This document shows, one piece after another, positions 24,722 through 36,675 of a stretch of 64,000 nt of DNA. The notes below the pieces were generated by a model. The model ran no database searches, was not told the origin of the DNA, and saw only the letters and a list, made by a program, of their open reading frames with translations. Within the stretch, counting starts at the first letter, position 1. Every line of letters begins with the position of its first letter. The position numbers and the translations under genes were made by a program. Origin of the DNA: Planctomycetota bacterium (GTDB lineage Bacteria > Planctomycetota > J058 > JAJDCQ01); assembly GCA_029260755.1 (NCBI GenBank), contig JAJDCQ010000059.1, positions 1 through 64,000 on the forward strand, read 5' to 3'.

Positions 24722-27700
24722 TCAGCGTTCGAGGAGCGGGGCGAGCTCGGGGTCGAGGAGCGCGATCGCCCGGACGAGTCGATCGGCGTCCGCCGCCCTC
24801 CCGAGGTCGGCGGCCGCCGCGAGGCGTGCGATGCTCCCATCGTGAATCCCGGCGCGGGTCCGCGCGAGAACGGCCGTCGGCCGATCGCTCGACGGTGGTT
24901 CGCCGGCGGCGCCCGTGCGCGCGAGGACGTAGCCCGTCAGGTCGCCGAGCCGGTCGTCGGTTCGCGGGAGCGTCGAGGCGATGTGGCGCGCCTCCTCGGT
25001 GAGCGCGCGCGGGCCCCCCGCGCCGGCGGTGACGCCCGCGTCGGCGAGGGCGCAGAGGGCGACCGCGCCGAGCGCGTCGCGCCGGCCGGCGGCGAGCTGC
25101 GAGAGACTCGCCTGGATCGCCCCGTGGCGCGGCGCCGCGGCGAGGCCTCCGATCCCGGCCTCGATCGCGCCGGCGCGATCGCCGAGCGCCTCGAGGTAAC
25201 GGGCCACGTTGATCTCGATGTCCCAGGCCGAGTAGCCGGCCGCTCGAGCGCGCTCGAGGTGGGCGAGCGCGTCCCGGAGCTCGCCCTCCCACCCGGCGAC
25301 GTTCGCCTCGAGATGCTCGAGGCCGTCGCGTCCGACCGCGAGCGCCTGGTTGTAGAGGAGATTCGCGGGCTTGGGCTCGGGGATGATCGCGTCGGCGATC
25401 GCGAGGATCGCCGTCAGGTCCTCCCAGCGATGGCCGGCGGCCCCGTAGCCGCTCGCGAGGAGGTGCCCGAGGGACGGGCGCCCGTCGACCCACTCGAGCG
25501 CGTCGAGGCGGTCGGCGGCGACGGCGTCCTCGCGCAGCGCGACCGCGGCCCGCGCGGCCAGGGCGCGGTCGCCCGCGACCGCCGCGGCCAGGCCGGCCCG
25601 GGCGACGGCGTCGGCGCTCCGGAGCGGCTCGAGGTCGGGCGCCACGCGGAGCAGCGCCTCGGCGACGGCGCGGGCCCGGGCGCGTCGCTGCGCCAGCCCG
25701 GTCGGGCCGAACGCCGAGGGGTCCGCCCGGGCGGGGACGGTGACCCGGGCGAGCTGCTCCGAGGCGAGGCGCCAGGCGGCGCGCTCGTCGCCGCGGTCCG
25801 CCGAGGAGGCCGCCTCGAGCCAGGCGAGGGTCGCCGCCGGGCCGCCCGCCGCCGCCTCGTCCAGCCTCGCCCGGGCGACGAGGGCGGGGTCGGGCGCAGG
25901 CGCATCGACGACGACGGCCTCGAACGTCACGGCCGGGCCCGACGACCCCCAGCCCGCGCGGGTGGCGACGGCCGCGACCGCGAACGGGTGGGCGAGCGCG
26001 ATCTCCGCGCGTGGCGTTCCGTCGGTCGCCTCGAGGCTGGCGCGGATGACATCGCCGCGTCGCTCGAGGATGAGCCGGCCGCTCGTCGGGATCGCGTCGA
26101 TCGCGGCGCGCCCGAGCAGCTCGCGGCCGTGGCGCAGGACGAGGCGGTCGTCGTCGAGCTCGGCGACGAGCGGGCGCCGGTCGGGGTCGCCGAGGAGGAG
26201 GAGCGGCCCTCCCGAGCCGTCGGCGTCCCGGACGAAGCGCGCCGCCACGCGCGCCGCGGCGCCGACCGGCTCCGGCGCGAGCGCGATCGCTGGGTGGTCG
26301 GTCCGGTCGGGTCGGCCGGTCACGGTGATGGGGCCGACGACGAAGCGACCCTCTCGCATCAGGAGCGAGATCGGTCGCGCCCGCGGCTCGTCGACGGCGT
26401 GCTCGTCGGCCTCTGCGACGACCCGACCGTCGAGGAGAACCCGCGTGCCGGCTTCGCTCCCCGGAGCGAAGACGATCGTGTGGCCTCGAGCGTCGAAGAC
26501 GGAGGCGGGCGAGCGGCGCTCGGCGATCACGAGCGCCTGCTGCCGCGCGTCGAGGACGAGGTGGGCCGACGGCTGGGAGTCGTCGGAGAGCCGGAGCGCG
26601 AGCCTGCCCTGGTCGATGGCCTCGGCCGAGAACCGGAGCTCGAAGGTGGGGGCGGTCCAGCGGGCGTCGCCGATCAGAAGCGCCGCCGTCGACGAGTCGT
26701 TCGCCGGCGCGAGCCTCCAGTCCGGGCCATCCTCGGTCGTCGCGGGAGAGAGGGCGACCTCGGCCGGCGAGCCGCGCGCGAGGAGGGTGCCCGCCTCGCG
26801 CGACTCGACGGAGCACGCGGAGCCGAGGTCTCCGTAGCGCACCCGGACGCGTCCGTCGGCGAGTCGGGTCGCCTCCCCCGCGAACGCGGCGCGGAGCGCA
26901 TCGGGCCCGCGTCGCGCGACGGCCGCGAGCGGCTCGGCCCGGCGCCCGGCGTCGTCTCCGAAGAGCGGCGCGCGGCGGAGGACGGCGCCGCGGTCCGCGA
27001 GGGTGAAGACGCGGGTCCACCCGGTCGGCGGCGGCGGCTCGGGCGGCGCCGGCCGGACCCCGTCGTCCGGGCCGGGGCCGACCTCGATCGGGTCGGTCTC
27101 GCGGCCGGATCCGATCGTCGCCCGGACGCCGAGCGCGACCCCGACGCCGAAGACGAGGCCGAAGACCGCGGCCGCCGCGATCACCGACGGCGAGGTCCAG
27201 AGCCCGGCGCGGGAACCGCCGAGGATCACGCCGGTCGACGGCCCGGGTCGGATCGAGCCGCTCTTGCGGCGCTGCGGCGCGGGGCGGCGCGGGCGAGCGG
27301 GCGCCTCGCCCCGGCCGACCGCCTCGAGCGCGGCGAGGCCTTCGGCGGGGGTCTGGTAGCGCGCGGTCGGGTCGCGGTGGGTGAGGTTCGCGACGAGCTC
27401 GGCGAAGCCGGCCGACAGCCCGATCACTCGCTCCCGCGGGTCGGGGCAGTCCTCCTCGACGTGTCGGTGCATCGTGTCGAGGGCCGTCTCGCCGGTGAGC
27501 GGCAGCGCGCCGGTGGCGGCCCGGTAGAGGAGCAGGCCGACCGCGTAGAGGTCGGCCCGGATGTCGAGCCCGGCCGTGCCGCTGACCTGCTCGGGGGCCA
27601 TGTAGCTCGGCGTCCCGAGGGTGAACCCGGTCTGGGTGAGGGTCGACTCGCCGGCGACCTTGGCGAGGCCGAGGTCGGCGAGCTTGGGGACGCCCCCTGC

Positions 27701-28189
27701 GGGGAGGAGGACGTTGCTCGGCTTGACGTCGCGGTGGACGAGCCCGGCCGCGTCGATCGCGGCCAGCCCGGCGAGGATCGCGCGACCGAGGGCGACCACC
27801 TCGGCCTCCGGCAGCCGGCCGCGACCGGCGAGGATGTCCTCGAGGCTGTCGCCGTGAACGAGCTCGTAGGCGATGAACGGCAGCCCGGTGACCGGGTCGC
27901 TGCCCGAGGCGTAGACACCGACGACGTTGTCGTGGGTGACCCGGGCGGCGGCCTCGCCCTCCCGCTGGAACCGCGCCAGCGTCTCGGGGTCGTCGGCGAT
28001 GTCGGGGAGGAGCACCTTGAGGGCGACGCTCGCGCCGCCGCCGGGGGGCCGGGCGCGGAAGACCAGGCCCATCCCGCCGCGTCCGATCACCTCCTCGATC
28101 GCGTAGCCGCCGATCTCGCTCGGGAGATCGGCGAAGGGGTCGGGACGCGACGGGGTGTTCCAGGTGGCGTCGTCGTTCCCGGTCACCAT
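24722..28189 (-). CDS. Transmembrane Ser/Thr protein kinase with large exported domain
   Basis: This 1155-residue protein has an N-terminal PknB-type kinase (residues 29-290): GRGGMGLVF, Lys58, HRDVKPSN (152-159), DLG in place of DFG (172-174) and APE (198-200), with all key residues present. A basic Pro-rich linker precedes one TM helix (about 333-357). The exported C-terminal part of about 800 residues has a beta-rich section (380-780, possibly LamG/concanavalin-like) followed by helical TPR-like repeats. It probably senses a periplasmic or envelope signal; the target is unknown. It is the next gene downstream of hpnR on the same strand, after a 55-bp gap. Confidence 0.92.
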   Translation of the reverse strand: MVTGNDDATWNTPSRPDPFADLPSEIGGYAIEEVIGRGGMGLVFRARPPGGGASVALKVLLPDIADDPETLARFQREGEAAARVTHDNVVGVYASGSDPVTGLPFIAYELVHGDSLEDILAGRGRLPEAEVVALGRAILAGLAAIDAAGLVHRDVKPSNVLLPAGGVPKLADLGLAKVAGESTLTQTGFTLGTPSYMAPEQVSGTAGLDIRADLYAVGLLLYRAATGALPLTGETALDTMHRHVEEDCPDPRERVIGLSAGFAELVANLTHRDPTARYQTPAEGLAALEAVGRGEAPARPRRPAPQRRKSGSIRPGPSTGVILGGSRAGLWTSPSVIAAAAVFGLVFGVGVALGVRATIGSGRETDPIEVGPGPDDGVRPAPPEPPPPTGWTRVFTLADRGAVLRRAPLFGDDAGRRAEPLAAVARRGPDALRAAFAGEATRLADGRVRVRYGDLGSACSVESREAGTLLARGSPAEVALSPATTEDGPDWRLAPANDSSTAALLIGDARWTAPTFELRFSAEAIDQGRLALRLSDDSQPSAHLVLDARQQALVIAERRSPASVFDARGHTIVFAPGSEAGTRVLLDGRVVAEADEHAVDEPRARPISLLMREGRFVVGPITVTGRPDRTDHPAIALAPEPVGAAARVAARFVRDADGSGGPLLLLGDPDRRPLVAELDDDRLVLRHGRELLGRAAIDAIPTSGRLILERRGDVIRASLEATDGTPRAEIALAHPFAVAAVATRAGWGSSGPAVTFEAVVVDAPAPDPALVARARLDEAAAGGPAATLAWLEAASSADRGDERAAWRLASEQLARVTVPARADPSAFGPTGLAQRRARARAVAEALLRVAPDLEPLRSADAVARAGLAAAVAGDRALAARAAVALREDAVAADRLDALEWVDGRPSLGHLLASGYGAAGHRWEDLTAILAIADAIIPEPKPANLLYNQALAVGRDGLEHLEANVAGWEGELRDALAHLERARAAGYSAWDIEINVARYLEALGDRAGAIEAGIGGLAAAPRHGAIQASLSQLAAGRRDALGAVALCALADAGVTAGAGGPRALTEEARHIASTLPRTDDRLGDLTGYVLARTGAAGEPPSSDRPTAVLARTRAGIHDGSIARLAAAADLGRAADADRLVRAIALLDPELAPLLER

Positions 28190-28244: not shown

Positions 28245-29750
28245 TCACGTCAGGACCGGCGTCGTCCGCTTCTTCTCGGGCACGTGGACGAAGAGGTCGT
28301 TCTGGGCCACCCGCTCGACCGCGGCGGGCGGCGGACGCATGGCGTAGCGGACGGGGCGGTCGTGCTCCTCGGTGAAGCGCCCCGCGTCGTAGACGTCGGT
28401 GAACTTCCAGAGCATCCGGGCGAAGTTGGTCTGGCCGCGGAGGAAGAGCGACCCGGTCCGCAGCATCGTCGCCCGGAACGCGGCGAAGCTCATGTGCTTC
28501 CGGCTGATGATCTCCTGGGTCTCGACGAGCTTCCGGTAGAAGACGGGGAGCGGCAGCTTCGTCGGGACGACCGCGTGCTGCACGTCGAAGAGGCGGTAGT
28601 CGTGGGTGGTGAGCCGGCGCTGCTCGGTGAGCCAGAGCTCGGTCCCGGGGTAGGGCGTCGCGACGGTGAGGTGGACGATCTCGGGGACCTCCAGCGCCCA
28701 CTCCTGGATGACGCGGAAGCGCTCCTCGTCCCAGCTCGGATCGGCGATGATGTTGACGGCGACGGTCATGCCGATGTCGCGCGCGATCTCGAGCGCCCGC
28801 TCGTTCTCGCCGACGTTCACCCGCTTGCGATGGTTGCTCAGGCCCTCGGCGTCGATCGCCTCGAGGCCGAGGAACATGTAGTGGAGGCCGAGGCGCTTCC
28901 AGTAGCGGAAGACCTCGTGATGGCGGATCAGGACGTCGCAGCGCGTCTCGAGGTAGTACTCCTTCTTGATCCGACGCTTCTCGAGCTCCCTCCCGATCGC
29001 GAAGCCGTGCTCGGGGTGGATGAACGCGACGTCGTCGACGAGGAACACGTTGGGCTCCTCGATGCTCGCCATCTCCTCGGCGACCGCCTCGGGCGAGCTC
29101 TTCCGGTAGCTCCGGCCGTAGAAGGTCCACGCGCTGCAGAACGAGCAGTCCCACGGGCAGCCCCGCGTCATCTCGATCGACGCGCACGGATCGAGGATCC
29201 CGATGAAGTAGTTCCGCCGGCGCCGGGTGAGGTGCCGCGCCGGTGGGCACGCGTCGAGGTTCTCGAGGAGGGTCGGCTGCGGTCCGGTCCCGTCCCGGGT
29301 GACGACGCCCGGCAGCGTCGCGAGCTGGGGGTCGCCGAGCGCCTCGAGGACTCGAGGGAAGATCACCTCGCCCTCGCCCCGGATCACGGCGTCGATCGCC
29401 CCGTCGCCGTGCTCGATGAGCTCCTCGGCGACGAACGAGGCGCTGTGGCCGCCGACGATGCAGAACGTGTCCGGGTTGTCCTCCTTGACCCACTTGCAGA
29501 GGTCGATCACCTCCGGGATGTTCGCGAGATAGTTCACCCCGAACGCCACGCAGCGCGGCTTGAACTCGCGCACCTCTCGCTTGAGGTCGCCGGGCTTGAA
29601 GATCTGGAGGTCGAGGAGACGGACCTCGTGGCCCGCGGCCTCGGCCGCGCCCGCGACGCGCTCGACCCCGAGCGGTTCGAGGCGGAGGTAGACCTCGGTG
29701 TAGAGGAGCGGGCTGGGATGGACCATCAGGACGCGCACGGCGGGCTCCAT
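28245..29750 (-). CDS. hpnR: Hopanoid C-3 methylase (B12-binding radical SAM)
   Basis: This 501-residue protein matches the HpnR family along its length. The N-terminal cobalamin-binding-type domain contains VHPSPLLYTEVYLRLEPLGVER and VGGHSASF (with VIRGEGE). The radical SAM core RGCPWDCSFCSAWTFYGRSY carries the CxxxCxxC cluster. Family blocks VDDVAFIHPEHG, YYLETRCDV, GLHYMFLGLEAID, IIADPSWDEERFRV and TPYPGTELW follow. HpnR adds a methyl group at C-3 of hopanoids, giving 3-methylhopanoids. No squalene-hopene cyclase or other hpn gene lies in the window. The ATG at 29750 lies about 19 nt after the predicted transcription start. Confidence 0.93.
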   Translation of the reverse strand: MEPAVRVLMVHPSPLLYTEVYLRLEPLGVERVAGAAEAAGHEVRLLDLQIFKPGDLKREVREFKPRCVAFGVNYLANIPEVIDLCKWVKEDNPDTFCIVGGHSASFVAEELIEHGDGAIDAVIRGEGEVIFPRVLEALGDPQLATLPGVVTRDGTGPQPTLLENLDACPPARHLTRRRRNYFIGILDPCASIEMTRGCPWDCSFCSAWTFYGRSYRKSSPEAVAEEMASIEEPNVFLVDDVAFIHPEHGFAIGRELEKRRIKKEYYLETRCDVLIRHHEVFRYWKRLGLHYMFLGLEAIDAEGLSNHRKRVNVGENERALEIARDIGMTVAVNIIADPSWDEERFRVIQEWALEVPEIVHLTVATPYPGTELWLTEQRRLTTHDYRLFDVQHAVVPTKLPLPVFYRKLVETQEIISRKHMSFAAFRATMLRTGSLFLRGQTNFARMLWKFTDVYDAGRFTEEHDRPVRYAMRPPPAAVERVAQNDLFVHVPEKKRTTPVLT

Positions 29751-29836: not shown

Positions 29837-29865
29837 TTGACGGGCTCGCCTCGCCGCGATAAAAC
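29837..29865 (+). promoter_or_regulatory. Sigma70-type promoter of the winged-helix/ispH operon
   Basis: TTGACG (29837-29842) and TAAAAC (29860-29865) are separated by 17 bp. The predicted start near 29872 falls inside the twin operators. It runs divergently from the hpnR promoter, whose -35 box is about 33 bp away. Confidence 0.65.
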
Positions 29866-29899
29866 ACTTTGCAGAGCAAAGTCGCTTTGTGACGCAAAG
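29866..29899 (+). promoter_or_regulatory. Twin operators ACTTTG-N5-CAAAGT
   Basis: Site 1 (29866-29882) reads ACTTTG-CAGAG-CAAAGT, a perfect dyad. Site 2 (29885-29899) reads CTTTG-TGACG-CAAAG. Centres are 18 bp apart, just downstream of the -10 box and over the likely start site. The spacing and position fit dimeric repressor binding by the winged-helix protein encoded in the operon. Confidence 0.65.
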
Positions 29900-29955
29900 T
29901 GCTCGCGGGCGTCGAAGCCGAAGAGCGGCGCCCGCTCGAGGAAGGGATCGAGAGA

Positions 29956-30654
29956 GTGAGCGACCCGACACGCCCGACGCCCGACGCCCCGCGCGGGACA
30001 TCCGGCACGGCGGCGCCTCCCCGGCCGGATCCGGATCCCGCCGAGGCGCTCGAGACCCTCCGGGCGATCCGCACCTTCCTCGAGGCCGGCGACGACCACG
30101 CCAGCGGAACGCGGCTCCCCGCGGCGAGCGCGTTCCTCGCCGGCTCGCTCGCCGCCATCGGCGCGGTCGTCCTCGAGACGGACCTGCTCCCTCTGCCCGA
30201 GCCGCGAGCGTTCCTCGTCGTGTGGGGCGCCGTCTTCGGCCTCGCCTTCGTCGGCTCGTTCGCGCTCGCCGAGGTCGGCGCCCGGATCCGTGGGCTCCCG
30301 GTCCTGTCGATCCTCGCCCGACGGATGACGCTCGCGTTGCTCCCCGCCCTGCTCGGCGCGGGCGTCGCGAGCGTCGCGATCCTCGCGAGCGGGTCGATCT
30401 CGGCGCTCCCGCCGGTGTGGATGGCGTTCTACGCGACCGGGCTGCTGGCCGCCGCCGGGCCGTCGTGGCGCCCGCTCTCCCTCGTCGCGGCCGCGTTCCT
30501 CAGCGCCGCCGCCGCCGCCGCCCTCGCCGCCGAGGACGGAAGAAACATCGTCATGGGCGTCGCCTTCGGCGGCATCCATCTCGCATACGCCGTCAGCCTC
30601 TACCTCCGCAGGAGCGACCCGTGGGACGAGCACGATCGACTGGCCGGGCAGTGA
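29956..30654 (+). CDS. Integral membrane protein partnered with a winged-helix regulator
   Basis: This 232-residue protein has a Pro-rich N-terminus and a short helix (PAEALETLRAIRTFLEAGDDHASG), then about six hydrophobic helices (FLAGSLAAIGAVVL, AFLVVWGAVFGLAFVGSFAL, ALLPALLGAGVASVAIL and others). It ends in a YLRRSDPWDEHDRL tail. A membrane protein next to a small winged-helix regulator is a recurrent arrangement in acidobacterial and planctomycete genomes; the function is unknown. The GTG at 29956 follows GGAAGGG. The last codon overlaps the next start (GTGA). Confidence 0.75.
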   Translation: MSDPTRPTPDAPRGTSGTAAPPRPDPDPAEALETLRAIRTFLEAGDDHASGTRLPAASAFLAGSLAAIGAVVLETDLLPLPEPRAFLVVWGAVFGLAFVGSFALAEVGARIRGLPVLSILARRMTLALLPALLGAGVASVAILASGSISALPPVWMAFYATGLLAAAGPSWRPLSLVAAAFLSAAAAAALAAEDGRNIVMGVAFGGIHLAYAVSLYLRRSDPWDEHDRLAGQ

Positions 30655-31088
30655 CCAGGCGGGCCGACCGCGGCCCCGTCGCCTCGCCCGCCTCGCGCGC
30701 CGCCGCGCGGGCGGCCGAGGAGAGTGATGCCTCGGTTCCCGACGCGCTCCCCGACGCGATCGAGGGGCTCGATCGCGTCATCCACGAGCGGGCCCGCCTC
30801 GCGATCGTGAGCGTCCTCGCGAGCGCCGGCGAGCTCAACTTCTCGGAGCTGCGGTCGCTCACGCGCCTCACCGACGGCAACCTCAGCGTCCACGCCCGCG
30901 TCCTCGAGGAGGCCGGCTACCTGAAGGTCCGCAAGGGCTACCAGGGGCGGCGTCCGCGGACGACCTACGCGCTCACCGCGCGCGGGCTGACGGCCGTGCG
31001 CGGGTACGTGGCCGCCCTCGAGCAGATCGTCACGAGCGTCCGCCCCGGTCCGCGCGGCTCCGGCGCCGACGGGGGGAGCGTCCGATGA
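30651..31088 (+). CDS. Winged-helix transcriptional regulator
   Basis: This 145-residue protein has a basic disordered N-terminus and then a compact winged-helix fold: IHERARLAIVSVLAS, ELNFSELRSLTRLTDGNLSVHARVLEEAGYL (helix-turn-helix) and KGYQGRRPRTTYALTARGL (wing). This matches the MarR/ArsR-like HTH_34-type family. It probably binds the twin operators at 29866-29899 and represses its own operon. Its GTG start overlaps the upstream stop (GTGA), and its own TGA overlaps the ispH ATG (ATGA), so all three genes are coupled. Confidence 0.88.
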   Translation: MTRRADRGPVASPASRAAARAAEESDASVPDALPDAIEGLDRVIHERARLAIVSVLASAGELNFSELRSLTRLTDGNLSVHARVLEEAGYLKVRKGYQGRRPRTTYALTARGLTAVRGYVAALEQIVTSVRPGPRGSGADGGSVR

Positions 31089-32053
31089 CGAACGAGCTTC
31101 AGCGGCGAGAGCTCGTGGATCCGGGCGAGCCGACGATCGTGCGGACGCCGCCGTCGTCCGCGTCCGGGGCGTCGATGGAGGTCGTGCGCGCCTCGGCTAT
31201 GGGGAAGTGCTTCGGCGTGCGTGACGCGATCGATCTCGCCCTCGAGGAGCGCTTTCGCGGGCGCCTGACCGTCCTCGGCGATCTCGTCCACAACCGGCAG
31301 GTGATCGAGCGGCTCGACGCGCACGGCGTCGACCGCGCGAGCTCCCTCGATGAGAGGATCGAGACCGGCTCGGTCATGATCACCGCCCACGGGACGAGCG
31401 ACCGGGTCCGGGACGAGGTCCGCGCCCGCGGCTACGAGCTCATCGACGCGACCTGTCCGCTCGTCGAGAAGGTCCACCGCCGGGCCCGCGAGCTCGAGCG
31501 GGACGGCTTCCACGTGGCCGTCGTCGGCAAGAAGGGGCACGTCGAGGTGCGCGGGCTGACCGGCGACCTGAGCGAGGCGAGCGTCGTGACGACCGAGGCC
31601 GACCTCGAGGACCTCCGCGGGCGGGCGCGGGTGGCCTTCGTCGCGCAGACGACGGAGACGACCGAGCGGTTCGACGCGATGGTCGCCGCCGCCCGGGCGC
31701 TCCTCGAGCCGGACGGCGTCGAGATCGCCTCGATCGACACGACCTGTCAGCCGACCCGCGATCGTCAGGCGGCGCTGCGTGAGCTGTCGCGGAGCTGCGA
31801 CCTCGTCATCGTGGTCGGCGACCCGACGAGCAACAACAGCCGCAAGCTGGCCGAGACGGCCCGCGCGCTCGGCGTCGACGCGCATCGCGTCGGGACGCCG
31901 GCCGACCTCGACCCGCGCTGGTTCCGGGGTCGTCGCCGCTGCGGGATCACCGCGGGCACCTCGACGCCCGACGAGTCGATCGACGCGGTCGAGGGCGCGA
32001 TCCGGGTGATCGCCGGCGCGCAGGCGGGCGGGGCGATCGACGACGCCGCCTGA
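31085..32053 (+). CDS. ispH: 4-hydroxy-3-methylbut-2-enyl diphosphate reductase
   Basis: This 322-residue IspH catalyses the last MEP-pathway step, making IPP and DMAPP. The three iron-sulfur cysteines are visible in GKCFGVRDA, DATCPLV and DTTCQPT. HNRQV, TAHGTS, GHVEVRGL (usually GHPEV, catalytic Glu kept) and TSNNSRKLAE are present. About 30 extra residues precede the core. It overlaps the regulator gene by ATGA, so the isoprenoid (and hopanoid) precursor enzyme is under the winged-helix regulator. Confidence 0.95.
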   Translation: MTNELQRRELVDPGEPTIVRTPPSSASGASMEVVRASAMGKCFGVRDAIDLALEERFRGRLTVLGDLVHNRQVIERLDAHGVDRASSLDERIETGSVMITAHGTSDRVRDEVRARGYELIDATCPLVEKVHRRARELERDGFHVAVVGKKGHVEVRGLTGDLSEASVVTTEADLEDLRGRARVAFVAQTTETTERFDAMVAAARALLEPDGVEIASIDTTCQPTRDRQAALRELSRSCDLVIVVGDPTSNNSRKLAETARALGVDAHRVGTPADLDPRWFRGRRRCGITAGTSTPDESIDAVEGAIRVIAGAQAGGAIDDAA

Positions 32054-33024: not shown

Positions 33025-33053
33025 ATGGTATGCGCGCCTCGCCCGGGGTTCAA
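33025..33053 (-). promoter_or_regulatory. Sigma70-type promoter for the exported protein gene
   Basis: On the minus strand, TTGAAC (33053-33048) and TACCAT (33030-33025) are separated by 17 bp. The predicted start is near 33018, with a leader of about 68 nt before the ATG at 32950. Confidence 0.55.
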
Positions 33054-33090
33054 CGCGGGGTCGACCCGTCGCCATCGGAAGAGAGACCAG

Positions 33091-33537
33091 GTGAGCGCGG
33101 ACGCCGGGACGTCGAGACGATGGGTCGCGGTCGTCCTGACCGCGGCGATCCTCCTCGTGCTCGGCTCGGAGCCGCGGTCCGGCAGCGGCGTGGCGCCGTT
33201 TCCGCACGCGGACAAGGTCGCCCACGCGATCGCCTACTCGGTCCTCGGGCTGCTCGCCGCGCGGGCGGCGCGCGGCTCGTCGGGTGGCGCGCTGGCGCCC
33301 ATCGTGGTGGCGCTCGTCACCGCGCTCCTCGTCGGGACGATCGACGAGCTCCACCAGCGGGTCGTCCCGGGGCGAACGTGCGACCTCTGGGACGCGGCGG
33401 CCGACGCCGTCGGCGGGCTGCTCGGCGGAGTGGGCTTCGTCCTGGTCGCTGGCTACTTGAGGACGCGGCGGATCTCGTCCCAGAACGCGGGGTCCTCGTT
33501 GCCGAGCGACCAGATCGCGATCCCGCGGAGGCCGTAG
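33091..33537 (+). CDS. VanZ-like membrane protein
   Basis: This 148-residue protein has helices at about 10-28, 44-60, 68-86 and 105-125. It carries the VanZ-family pattern DKVAHAIAYSVLG...GTIDELHQRVVPGRTCDLWDAAADAVGG. VanZ relatives are linked to teicoplanin resistance or envelope roles; the function here is unknown. The GTG at 33091 follows GAAGAGAG. The C-terminal tail of about 25 residues lies over the end of the convergent GH18 gene (85-bp overlap) and may be unconserved. Confidence 0.85.
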   Translation: MSADAGTSRRWVAVVLTAAILLVLGSEPRSGSGVAPFPHADKVAHAIAYSVLGLLAARAARGSSGGALAPIVVALVTALLVGTIDELHQRVVPGRTCDLWDAAADAVGGLLGGVGFVLVAGYLRTRRISSQNAGSSLPSDQIAIPRRP

Positions 33538-34610
33538 CGACGCGCGACGTCGCACTTTGCCGCGATGGCGCGGGTGTCCTGAAGCCAGACGGTGTGGTCG
33601 ACGCCGGCGTCGTCGCGGTAGTCGAAGTAGGTCTCGCCGCGGGCGGGGACGAACTGGAGCCCGGCGGGGCTTCGACCGAGCCGCGCCTGGGCCGACGACC
33701 ACGTGACGCTGCGGATGCGGCTGCCGTCGGCGGGGAAGTCGTAGCCGTAGAACGGGATCCCGAGCTGGATCTTGTCGGCGGGCATCGTCGTGATCGCGTA
33801 GTCGAGCACCTGCGCCTGGTAGTCGGTCGGCGCGATCGGCCCCGGCCGGCTCGACCACGGGCCGCTGTAGCCGTAGGTCATGATCTTCACGCGGTCGGCG
33901 TGCGGGGCCAGGGCGGGGTAGTCGTAGCCGACCCAGCTCGGACGGTCGGCGCGCTTGCCGGGGATGGTGAGCGAGAAGATCTTCCCCTGGGCGCGGACGG
34001 CCGCGGACATCTCGGCCACGAACGCGCTGAAGGCGTCGCGGGTCGCCGTCTTGGCGTGCTCGAAGTCGATGTCGATCCCGTCGTAGCCGTATCGATCGAT
34101 CTCGTCGAGCATCGCCGCGATCGCCCGGGCGCGCCTGGCGGGGTCGGCGAGGACGGCCGGCAGGTTGTCGCGGTCGTGCACGTCGAACACGGTCGGGATC
34201 ATCAGACCGCCGGCGTTGTGGACGGTCGTGATGAGCGCCTGGTCGCGCGCGCCGGTGCGGGTCGAGAGGGTCCCGTCCGCCTCGAGGCCGTACCAGAACG
34301 GGTTGAGCTCGTCGAGGCCGTTGCCCGCGTTGTCGGAGACCGTCTGGCCGCCGGAGGTGCGCGACCAGTAGGGCAGCCAGCCGGCGACCTCGAAGGTCGG
34401 CCCTGGCGGCGGGGTCGGCGCGGGCGCGGGCGTGGGGACCGGCGTCGGGCTCGGGGCGGGCGCGCTCGCACCCGGGAGGGTCGCCGAGCCGCTGCCCGCG
34501 GCGACCGTCCCGCGGGAGCCGCTCCCGCCTCCGCTGCAGCCGATGATGGCGACGCCGAGCGCGGCGACGAACGCCGTGGTGGGAACGCGCGACGGGTAGC
34601 GTTGGGTCAT
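33453..34610 (-). CDS. Glycoside hydrolase family 18 lipoprotein
   Basis: This 385-residue protein has a lipobox ending in Cys25 (AIIGC), then a Ser/Gly and Pro/Thr-Ala linker. The GH18 barrel begins at FEVAGWLPYW. The catalytic motif YDGIDIDFE (DxxDxDxE) is intact, and VKIMTYGYSG and KIQLGIPFYGYDF are typical. It may act on chitin-like or peptidoglycan (muramidase/SleL-like) substrates at the cell surface. GAGGAGGACCCGA precedes the ATG at 34610. It is divergent from the ABC transporter gene. Confidence 0.93.
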   Translation of the reverse strand: MTQRYPSRVPTTAFVAALGVAIIGCSGGGSGSRGTVAAGSGSATLPGASAPAPSPTPVPTPAPAPTPPPGPTFEVAGWLPYWSRTSGGQTVSDNAGNGLDELNPFWYGLEADGTLSTRTGARDQALITTVHNAGGLMIPTVFDVHDRDNLPAVLADPARRARAIAAMLDEIDRYGYDGIDIDFEHAKTATRDAFSAFVAEMSAAVRAQGKIFSLTIPGKRADRPSWVGYDYPALAPHADRVKIMTYGYSGPWSSRPGPIAPTDYQAQVLDYAITTMPADKIQLGIPFYGYDFPADGSRIRSVTWSSAQARLGRSPAGLQFVPARGETYFDYRDDAGVDHTVWLQDTRAIAAKCDVARRYGLRGIAIWSLGNEDPAFWDEIRRVLK

Positions 34611-34746
34611 TCGGGTCCTCCTCTCTCTCGCACTCGGTCTAGCCGGAGCGGTCACGCCGCCGTGCGTCGAAGATTCCTCCCCGCGAGCGGGGTCTTGCGG
34701 AAGATCCCGTTGACAGGCGACTTGCGGTTGGACATCCTCGACCCGG

Positions 34747-36675
34747 ATGGAGGAGCCCGACGCCGAACGAGAGGCCGCGCCCGAAGGCGAGGCGACGCCC
34801 GAGACGCCCCCGTCGCCCCCGACGGCCTCGGGGGCGCCGGTCGGCGTCGTCGCGACCCTTCAGGCGGCGCTTCGCAACATAGCCTTCCTCCGGACGACCT
34901 ACCGGCCCTACCGTCGCTGGCTCGTCATCACCTGCGGGCTGCTCTCGCTCCAGAGCATGTTCGAGGGCGCCGTCCTCGCGTGCCTCGTTCCCGCGTTCGC
35001 CTTCATCACCGGCGAGGCGGCCGAGCCGACGAGCTCGCTCGGCCAGGGTCTGCGGGCGGCGCTCGAGGCGGTCGGCCTGTCGTGGAGCTTCGGCTCGATC
35101 TTCCTCGTGATCGTGCTCCTCTCGCTCGCGCGGGCCGTCACGAGGATCGCCGGCGACATCCTGGCGGCGCGCTCGGTCGCATCCCTCATGCGCGAGCTCC
35201 GCGGGCGCGTCTTCCGGAGCCTGCTCGAGACGAGCTGGCCCTACTTCACCCGTCAGCGGATGGGCGATCTGATCGCGCTCGGATGGAGCGAGACCGGGAA
35301 GACGGGCGCGCTCTTCCGGACGTTGATCCTCCTCTACAACATGGCCTTCGCCGCTCTCTGCTACGCGGTGATCGCCGCCTGGATCGCGCCGGGCGTGACC
35401 GCGGCGGCGCTCGGCCTGGCCGGGGCGACGACGCTCCTCCTCATGCCGCTCTACGGGCGAGGAAAGGCCGTCGGGCGGCGGTCGGTGTCGACCGGCAAGA
35501 ACGCCCACCAGGTGCTGACCGGGCTGCTCGTCGGCTGGAAGGCGGTGAAGGCGAGCGCGATCGAGGAGCAGGCGGCGACCCTCTTCGATCGGCGCCTCGA
35601 CGCGGTGGAGCAGGTGGACGTCGCCCGCGGCCGGGTGAACGCGCTCATAGCGTCGGTCTTCGAGCCGGCGGTCGTCCTCTTCGTGATCGCGTTCGTCTGG
35701 GGAATGCGCGCCGCGTTCGAGGTCAGCCTCGCCGAGGCGAGCGTGATCGGGCTGCTCCTCTACCGGATCTACCAGCAGGTCTCGGCGATCCAGCGCTCGT
35801 TCGGCAACCTCGCCCTCGCCGTCGGCGGCGTCGAGATGGTGACCGAGTTCGAGCGCGAGCTCGGCGGCGCCCGCGAGCCGCGCGGGGCGACGCCCGCGCC
35901 GCCGCTTCAGCGAGCCGTCCTCGACCGGGTCGAGTTCGCCTACGAGCGCGACCAGCCGGTCCTGCGCGGGGTGAGCCTCGAGGTCGCCGCCGGCGAGCTC
36001 GTCGGCATCGTCGGCGAGAGCGGCGCGGGCAAGTCGACCGTCGCCGACATCCTCCTCGGCCTGCTGCCCCCCGACCGCGGTCGCGTCACGATCAACGGGC
36101 GCGACCTGGCCGAGCTCGACGTCCGCTCGTGGCGGCAGCGGGTCGGCTACGTCGGGCAGGAGACGATCCTCTTCGACGCGTCGATCCACGACAACGTAGC
36201 GCTCTTCGACGACTCGGTCACGCGCGAGGACGTCGTCCGCGCGGCCGGCCTCGCCGCGGCCGATGCGTTCGTCACGGGGTTCCCCGAGGGCTACGAGACG
36301 CTCGTCGGCGACCGCGGGACCCGCCTCTCGGGCGGTGAGCGCCAGCGGATCGCGCTCGCCCGGGCGCTCCTGCGCCGCCCCGAGCTCCTGGTCCTCGACG
36401 AGGCGACGAGCTCGCTCGACGGAGCGTCCGAGCGGGCCGTCCTCGACGCGCTCGACGGGCTCCGGTCCGAGCTCGCGATCGTCAGCGTCGCCCACCGCCT
36501 CTCCAGCGTCGCCGCCGCCGATCGGATCGTGGTCCTCGCGGAGGGACGGGTGGTCCAGAGCGGGCCGCCCGAGGAGCTCCTTCGCGAGGAGGGACCGTTC
36601 CGCCGCCTCCACGACCTCCAGGGCGGGGCCGGCGCCCCGGTGGACGCCGGCGATGCTCAGGATCGACGCGGATAG
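34747..36675 (+). CDS. MsbA-like ABC exporter (fused permease-ATPase)
   Basis: This 642-residue protein has a six-helix membrane domain (about residues 55-360) followed by the nucleotide-binding domain: Walker A GESGAGKST, Q-loop VGQETILFDASI, signature LSGGERQR, Walker B LLVLDEATSSLD and switch AHRLSS. It is likely a homodimeric exporter for a lipid-linked sugar or glycolipid, given the surrounding glycan genes. TTGACA (34710-34715) lies upstream, but the -10 box is unclear. Its 3' end overlaps the convergent sulfotransferase by 19 bp. Confidence 0.92.
   Translation: MEEPDAEREAAPEGEATPETPPSPPTASGAPVGVVATLQAALRNIAFLRTTYRPYRRWLVITCGLLSLQSMFEGAVLACLVPAFAFITGEAAEPTSSLGQGLRAALEAVGLSWSFGSIFLVIVLLSLARAVTRIAGDILAARSVASLMRELRGRVFRSLLETSWPYFTRQRMGDLIALGWSETGKTGALFRTLILLYNMAFAALCYAVIAAWIAPGVTAAALGLAGATTLLLMPLYGRGKAVGRRSVSTGKNAHQVLTGLLVGWKAVKASAIEEQAATLFDRRLDAVEQVDVARGRVNALIASVFEPAVVLFVIAFVWGMRAAFEVSLAEASVIGLLLYRIYQQVSAIQRSFGNLALAVGGVEMVTEFERELGGAREPRGATPAPPLQRAVLDRVEFAYERDQPVLRGVSLEVAAGELVGIVGESGAGKSTVADILLGLLPPDRGRVTINGRDLAELDVRSWRQRVGYVGQETILFDASIHDNVALFDDSVTREDVVRAAGLAAADAFVTGFPEGYETLVGDRGTRLSGGERQRIALARALLRRPELLVLDEATSSLDGASERAVLDALDGLRSELAIVSVAHRLSSVAAADRIVVLAEGRVVQSGPPEELLREEGPFRRLHDLQGGAGAPVDAGDAQDRRG

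Follow-up and report, generated by a model that had tools for sequence, protein, structure and literature searches.

A winged-helix regulator, its candidate palindromic operators and dedicated isoprenoid isozymes in a putative autoregulatory cassette shared by many bacterial phyla

The window analysed here is a stretch of 64,000 nucleotides from a Planctomycetota draft genome (12.26 Mb in 276 contigs, about 88% complete), and it contains an operon of three genes preceded by a promoter and two palindromes. The core promoter on the plus strand (29837–29865) consists of TTGACG (29837–29842), a 17-bp spacer and TAAAAC (29860–29865); the -10 element is weak, and the promoter was absent from the output of a consensus promoter scan. 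Operator 1 (29866–29882, ACTTTGCAGAGCAAAGT) is an exact palindrome that abuts the -10 element and lies over the expected transcription start. Operator 2 (29884–29900, GCTTTGTGACGCAAAGT) starts 18 bp past the start of operator 1 and carries a single mismatch, an A to G change at position 1, which is the commonest departure at that position among relatives. The centres of the two sites read CAGAG and TGACG, respectively. A search of the whole window for the motif with up to two mismatches returned these two sites only, against 0.05 expected from dinucleotide shuffles. The operon, on the plus strand, encodes a membrane protein of ~232 aa (29956–30654; GTG start, TGA stop), a winged-helix regulator (30651–31088; GTG start, TGA stop; HTH_34, PF13601) and IspH (31085–32053; ATG start, TGA stop; TIGR00216), with 4-base overlaps of GTGA at the first junction and ATGA at the second. 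The preliminary description had reported a promoter with twin dyads 18 bp apart over the start site, followed by these three overlapping genes; direct reading of the sequence, together with profile matches for the genes, confirmed both points. By reading alone, other genes of the window look like those of a Ser/Thr kinase (24722–28189, minus strand), a VanZ-like protein (33025–33537, plus strand), a glycoside-hydrolase-18-like secreted protein (33453–34655, minus strand) and an ABC transporter (34747–36675, plus strand).

The regulator matched the Pfam HTH_34 profile with 91.2 bits (cut-off 27) over positions 2–80 of 80. It is encoded by the only HTH_34 gene in the whole draft genome, which allows motif and regulator to be paired. 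AlphaFold2 predicted a winged-helix fold (pLDDT 84) whose C-terminal helix would lend itself to dimerisation, and the best PDB match was 1ub9 (fold E 1.1e-6; sequence profile E 3.4e-17), on which the model was superimposed with an rmsd of 1.6 Å over 97 columns. The protein also passed the broader Pfam HTH_5 profile (29.1 bits, cut-off 22) and scored below the Pfam MarR cut-offs. An ArsR/SmtB metalloregulator was considered and rejected, as the score against NCBIfam NF033788 was 31.5 bits (cut-off 55) and the protein sequence contains no cysteine. Lacking cysteine, the regulator would not by itself serve as a thiol sensor or a classical metal sensor.

The membrane protein of the window had no match in Pfam or NCBIfam. 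It is divergent, yet it matched an HMM of 74 proteins encoded before HTH_34 genes with an E value of 1.1e-31. Its AlphaFold2 model is an all-helical bundle (pLDDT 86.5), and a fold search of the PDB with this model gave nothing significant. A membrane protein of ~200 aa is encoded before the regulator in nearly all loci and in nearly all phyla covered, and this unnamed family is probably a partner of the regulator.

Homologues of the regulator were searched for in contigs using a 7-member HTH_34 alignment, an 18-protein alignment being too diverse. They were found in 20 of the 58 sampled genomes of the phylum and in hundreds of further genomes; none was found in the 11 others sampled from the order or class to which the window belongs, which counts against the reading proposed below. 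The best 80 loci were analysed; these are the most similar rather than a random sample, come mostly from draft MAGs and include relatives that are not independent. They represent about a dozen phyla: Acidobacteriota, Gemmatimonadota, Verrucomicrobiota, Planctomycetota, Hydrogenedentota, Eisenbacteria, Elusimicrobiota, Spirochaetota, Chloroflexota, Rhodothermota, Pseudomonadota and MAGs called Actinomycetota.

At these 80 homologous loci the palindrome was more than 100-fold enriched around the regulator gene, with 53 sites within -1500 to +1000 of regulator genes (195 kb) versus 2 in the other 843 kb, and both of the distant sites sit 140–160 bp before uppS. The consensus over the 53 sites of related loci is RCTTTGYANTRCAAAGY. 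The palindrome was present in 42 of the 80 loci at up to one mismatch and in 62 at up to two, whereas 60 control palindromes made from shuffled half-sites gave means of 0.03 and 1.3, respectively. Among genomes of the phylum that were searched for both regulator and motif, exact ACTTTGYNNNRCAAAGT sites (Y and R being the inner bases) occurred in 8 of the 20 genomes with the regulator versus 0 of the 34 without it (Fisher P 1.2e-4). Operators occupy two places, one before the membrane protein gene (~560–810 bp before the regulator match) and, often, another before the next gene; genome G115 displays both, with exact operators before the membrane protein gene and between regulator and ispH. The window has the same order, a RCTTTGYANTRCAAAGY operator followed by a membrane protein gene of the shared family and an HTH_34 gene. 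A branch of HTH_34 loci (L017, L018 and L084) has no operator and continues with a glycerate-kinase-like gene, an observation that counts against the reading proposed below. Autoregulation of the winged-helix protein through the palindromes, as first suggested from the window alone, is supported by their recurrence upstream of orthologous operons, most of which carry the palindrome, across phyla; the preliminary description had named their absence there as a refutation. On comparative grounds, the pairing of this regulator family with the palindrome is strongly supported.

We next consider the genes that follow the regulator at 104 loci. A cis-prenyltransferase gene (uppS) was found at 48 of them, directly after the regulator in 45, past a B12-radical SAM gene in one and upstream of the cassette in two; ispH directly follows the regulator at 12. 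In 57 of 104 loci, then, the gene immediately downstream of the regulator is uppS or ispH; in L098 and L110 it is a gene resembling geranylgeranyl reductase (GGR). At around 40% of loci the regulator is followed by other genes (DUF4153, B12-radical SAM, NIPSNAP, glycerate kinase or ankyrin), which counts against the main reading. A tree of the regulators had low resolution and served solely to show that partner genes switch several times. Comparison of loci thus brings out an autoregulatory layout and its link to isoprenoid enzymes, and the connection to isoprenoid output proposed in the preliminary description is supported by the 57 cassettes and by an unlinked GGR-like target in two genomes.

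Several of the other partner genes form families of their own. An unnamed B12-binding radical SAM family follows the regulator in L015, L024, L030, L078 and L014, mostly with its own operator; its members start with LLINPFYPKDPxASFGKHVLTP, are 63–66% identical across classes, fall below every NCBIfam cut-off and perhaps act on a lipid substrate. DUF4153 membrane proteins are encoded after the regulator in L069, L073, L080 and L155 or, in G163, behind an unlinked operator. NIPSNAP-type proteins are encoded one or two genes past the regulator in Acidobacteria (L077, L086, L104, L106, L121, L124 and L129).

The IspH of the window (LYTB, 253 bits; TIGR00216, 244.1 bits, cut-off 187.85) keeps the three Fe-S cysteines, in GKCFGV, ATCPLV and TTCQPT. 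The same genome has another ispH of the long PRK13371 type on contig C138 (L008/L012 8394–9656, G000:C138; 502 bits, cut-off 440). A second ispH was present in 12 of the 14 genomes with a regulator-linked ispH and was of the long type in seven, including the window's genome, in which the PRK13371 match was seen. In an unrooted tree in which some unlinked rows have long branches, the linked IspH proteins from different phyla, the window copy among them, formed one clade (support 97/97; 96% of bootstrap trees). Verrucomicrobia, too, combine a long ispH with a short one.

A similar picture was obtained for UppS. Of the 12 genomes carrying a linked uppS, most contain a further uppS elsewhere; two Gemmatimonadales drafts (G162 and G163) show only one. 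In a tree, the linked UppS proteins separated from the housekeeping copies with support of 100/99, L074 and L031 being exceptions; row L182 there is the linked L074 copy and L185 the unlinked copy. cdsA directly follows the housekeeping uppS in all nine cases checked outside the window's genome, and linked uppS genes have no cdsA after them. Mere reflection of the housekeeping uppS cluster as a reason for the linkage was ruled out by the second copies, the separate UppS group and the missing cdsA. The separate linked clades and the second copies elsewhere suggest that the switch mostly controls dedicated isozymes rather than housekeeping enzymes. Judged by sequence, the ispH of the window is such a dedicated second copy.

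A scan of the whole 12.3-Mb genome for the motif, which the preliminary description had called for, revealed just five sites with zero or one mismatch, at three promoters; six more sites with exactly two mismatches look like background. Besides the two operators of the window, a pair of sites with starts 22 bp apart (contig C148, 8921–8959) precedes a VIT/VWA gene, and a single site (contig C262, 43394–43410) lies ~27 bp upstream of the probable ATG of a gene for a geranylgeranyl-reductase-like flavoprotein. The flavoprotein scored 122.7 bits against TIGR02032, under the cut-off of 158.8, and is a relative of geranylgeranyl reductase rather than a member of the family by score. In genome G012, an operator away from the regulator likewise precedes a GGR homologue. 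The operon on C148 (L009 2704–8959, G000:C148) encodes the VIT/VWA protein, then an exosortase (EpsH/DUF3485) and then a double cytochrome c/EB_dh protein. This target has no clear isoprenoid role, which counts against the main reading.

Taken together, the evidence makes it likely that the locus is an autoregulated winged-helix repressor switch, perhaps with a membrane sensor, that controls dedicated isoprenoid isozymes. What follows on dimer binding, on repression, on the signal and on what the membrane protein does is inferred. The HTH_34 protein would bind RCTTTG-YANTR-CAAAGY as a dimer, a pairing drawn from comparative genomics, and two dimers at 29866–29900 would, from their position, sit on the transcription start and keep the operon off. 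The membrane protein most probably monitors an isoprenoid or membrane lipid, by its state or its amount, or else tethers the regulator to the membrane; in this way it would relieve repression. The operon would then yield more regulator, more membrane protein and the second IspH isozyme, and the distant promoters of the GGR-like gene and the VIT/VWA–exosortase operon carry the same sites. Because dedicated UppS or IspH copies accompany the module again and again, its general job would be to tune isoprenoid supply beyond what the housekeeping enzymes provide. More tentatively, and with somewhat less than even confidence, we propose that the unnamed membrane protein family and the HTH_34 repressor constitute a widespread two-protein sensor for the status of polyprenyl or isoprenoid lipids that switches on dedicated IspH or UppS, a general feedback circuit in Acidobacteria, Gemmatimonadota, Verrucomicrobia, Planctomycetota and others.

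The strongest competing explanation is that the switch serves hydrophobic-compound, envelope or redox stress and answers to a non-isoprenoid signal, the isoprenoid isozymes being only some of its targets. The VIT/VWA–exosortase–cytochrome operon, the DUF4153 membrane proteins and the B12-radical SAM enzymes are targets that would suit this explanation, and the Fe-S clusters of IspH and of radical SAM enzymes are sensitive to oxygen. However, more than half of the loci have uppS or ispH immediately after the regulator, a share far beyond chance expectation; no Fe-S cluster is known from UppS or from the GGR-like flavoprotein; and the cysteine-free regulator of the window would by itself be neither a thiol sensor nor a classical metal sensor. 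We therefore regard a stress switch as rather unlikely, and continue with the isoprenoid reading.

The position of the operators relative to the promoter bears on the sign of control. A TTGAC-like -35 element occupies one of three fixed registers at 28 of the 37 upstream operators, against a background of 1.2% per 13-bp stretch. In 17 of the 37, none of them of the ispH type and many in uppS-type loci, the operator immediately precedes the -35 element; in seven, six of them of the ispH type, it lies between the -35 and -10 elements; and in four it lies after the -10 element, a layout shared by the window. L073 and L074 have the layout of the window too, with TTGACN-N17/18-TAAAGT followed at once by the operator. 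Operators in all three registers touch the core promoter. The two downstream registers would suit repression, whereas the one upstream of the -35 element could suit an activator, and the sign of control may differ between lineages. The 17 upstream operators end ~2 bp before TTGACA, close to the position of a class II activator, raising the question of whether the regulator is an activator or a dual regulator that helps RNA polymerase from upstream of -35 and represses over the start. In the window and the ispH-type loci, in contrast, the operator lies after the -10 element or between -35 and -10, fitting repression, and most small MarR/ArsR-type winged-helix proteins act as repressors. Activation or dual control is accordingly an improbable general description, and repression is retained as the preferred mode.

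The gene divergent from the operon, hpnR (28245–29750, minus strand), encodes a hopanoid C-3 methylase (TIGR04367, 802 bits, cut-off 650) and had been suggested as part of the control. For the operators, a main function in coupling hpnR to ispH, and thereby in controlling hopanoid methylation, would be consistent with the intergenic region that hpnR shares with the operon. However, no true hpnR linked to the regulator was found at any other locus, and the operators lie ~60 bp upstream of a plausible minus-strand hpnR promoter (TTGAAT 29804–29799, N17, TAAGGT 29781–29776). The suggestion is not supported, given this unconserved linkage and spacing; coordination of hpnR is very unlikely as the main function, and hpnR probably stands outside the switch. 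Regulator-adjacent B12-radical SAM genes were examined as candidate hpnR genes and rejected, with 25–29% identity and HpnR scores of 34–44 (cut-off 650). That the dyads are instead RNA hairpins (an attenuator or terminator) is hardly credible, for although operator 1 appears on the minus strand in a terminator scan, the same palindrome lies upstream of -35, and hence untranscribed from that promoter, at many loci, stands alone before unlinked genes and is conserved in its sequence beyond mere pairing.

To our knowledge, very little has been described in bacteria of transcriptional control dedicated to the MEP pathway or to the synthesis of undecaprenyl diphosphate. The present results point to an undescribed bacterial way of adjusting the making of isoprenoid lipids, suggest what some of the HTH_34 proteins and a membrane family absent from Pfam may do, and prompt the question of why a second, regulated UppS or IspH is retained in these bacteria. 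Tests can now start from one defined DNA site, one defined protein and a regulon of small size. In the open-access literature, a scope that leaves most subscription journals outside and gives weak evidence of absence, we found no description of this switch, no mention of HTH_34 or PF13601, and nothing joining uppS with a winged-helix regulator or DUF4153 with a transcriptional regulator.

Among known systems, ArsR/SmtB and MarR regulators have the same winged-helix fold and short palindromic operators; the window regulator differs from them in falling below the NCBIfam ArsR/SmtB and Pfam MarR cut-offs and in having no cysteine. PH1061 of Pyrococcus horikoshii (PDB 1ub9) is its best match in both sequence profile and fold, but is archaeal and was deposited as a hypothetical protein or regulator homologue; we know of no regulon for it. 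The housekeeping uppS–cdsA cluster also encodes UppS, whereas the linked UppS is a separate paralogue with no cdsA directly after it. In working, the nearest known regulator may be CrtR of Corynebacterium glutamicum, an autoregulating MarR-family protein that controls the carotenoid (crt) genes and is released by geranylgeranyl diphosphate (PMC5401885, PMC7432914). Its operator is a TTAA-centred site of 15–19 bp (PMC7432914), and identity with CrtR was rejected since the central TTAA is missing from the operators of the window. CrtR is of the MarR type and acts on crt genes in actinobacteria, whereas the regulator described here is linked to ispH, uppS and GGR-like genes and is preceded by a membrane protein gene. 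Both appear to be small autoregulating winged-helix repressors tied to isoprenoid genes, and the release of CrtR by geranylgeranyl diphosphate may serve as a model for the signal proposed here.
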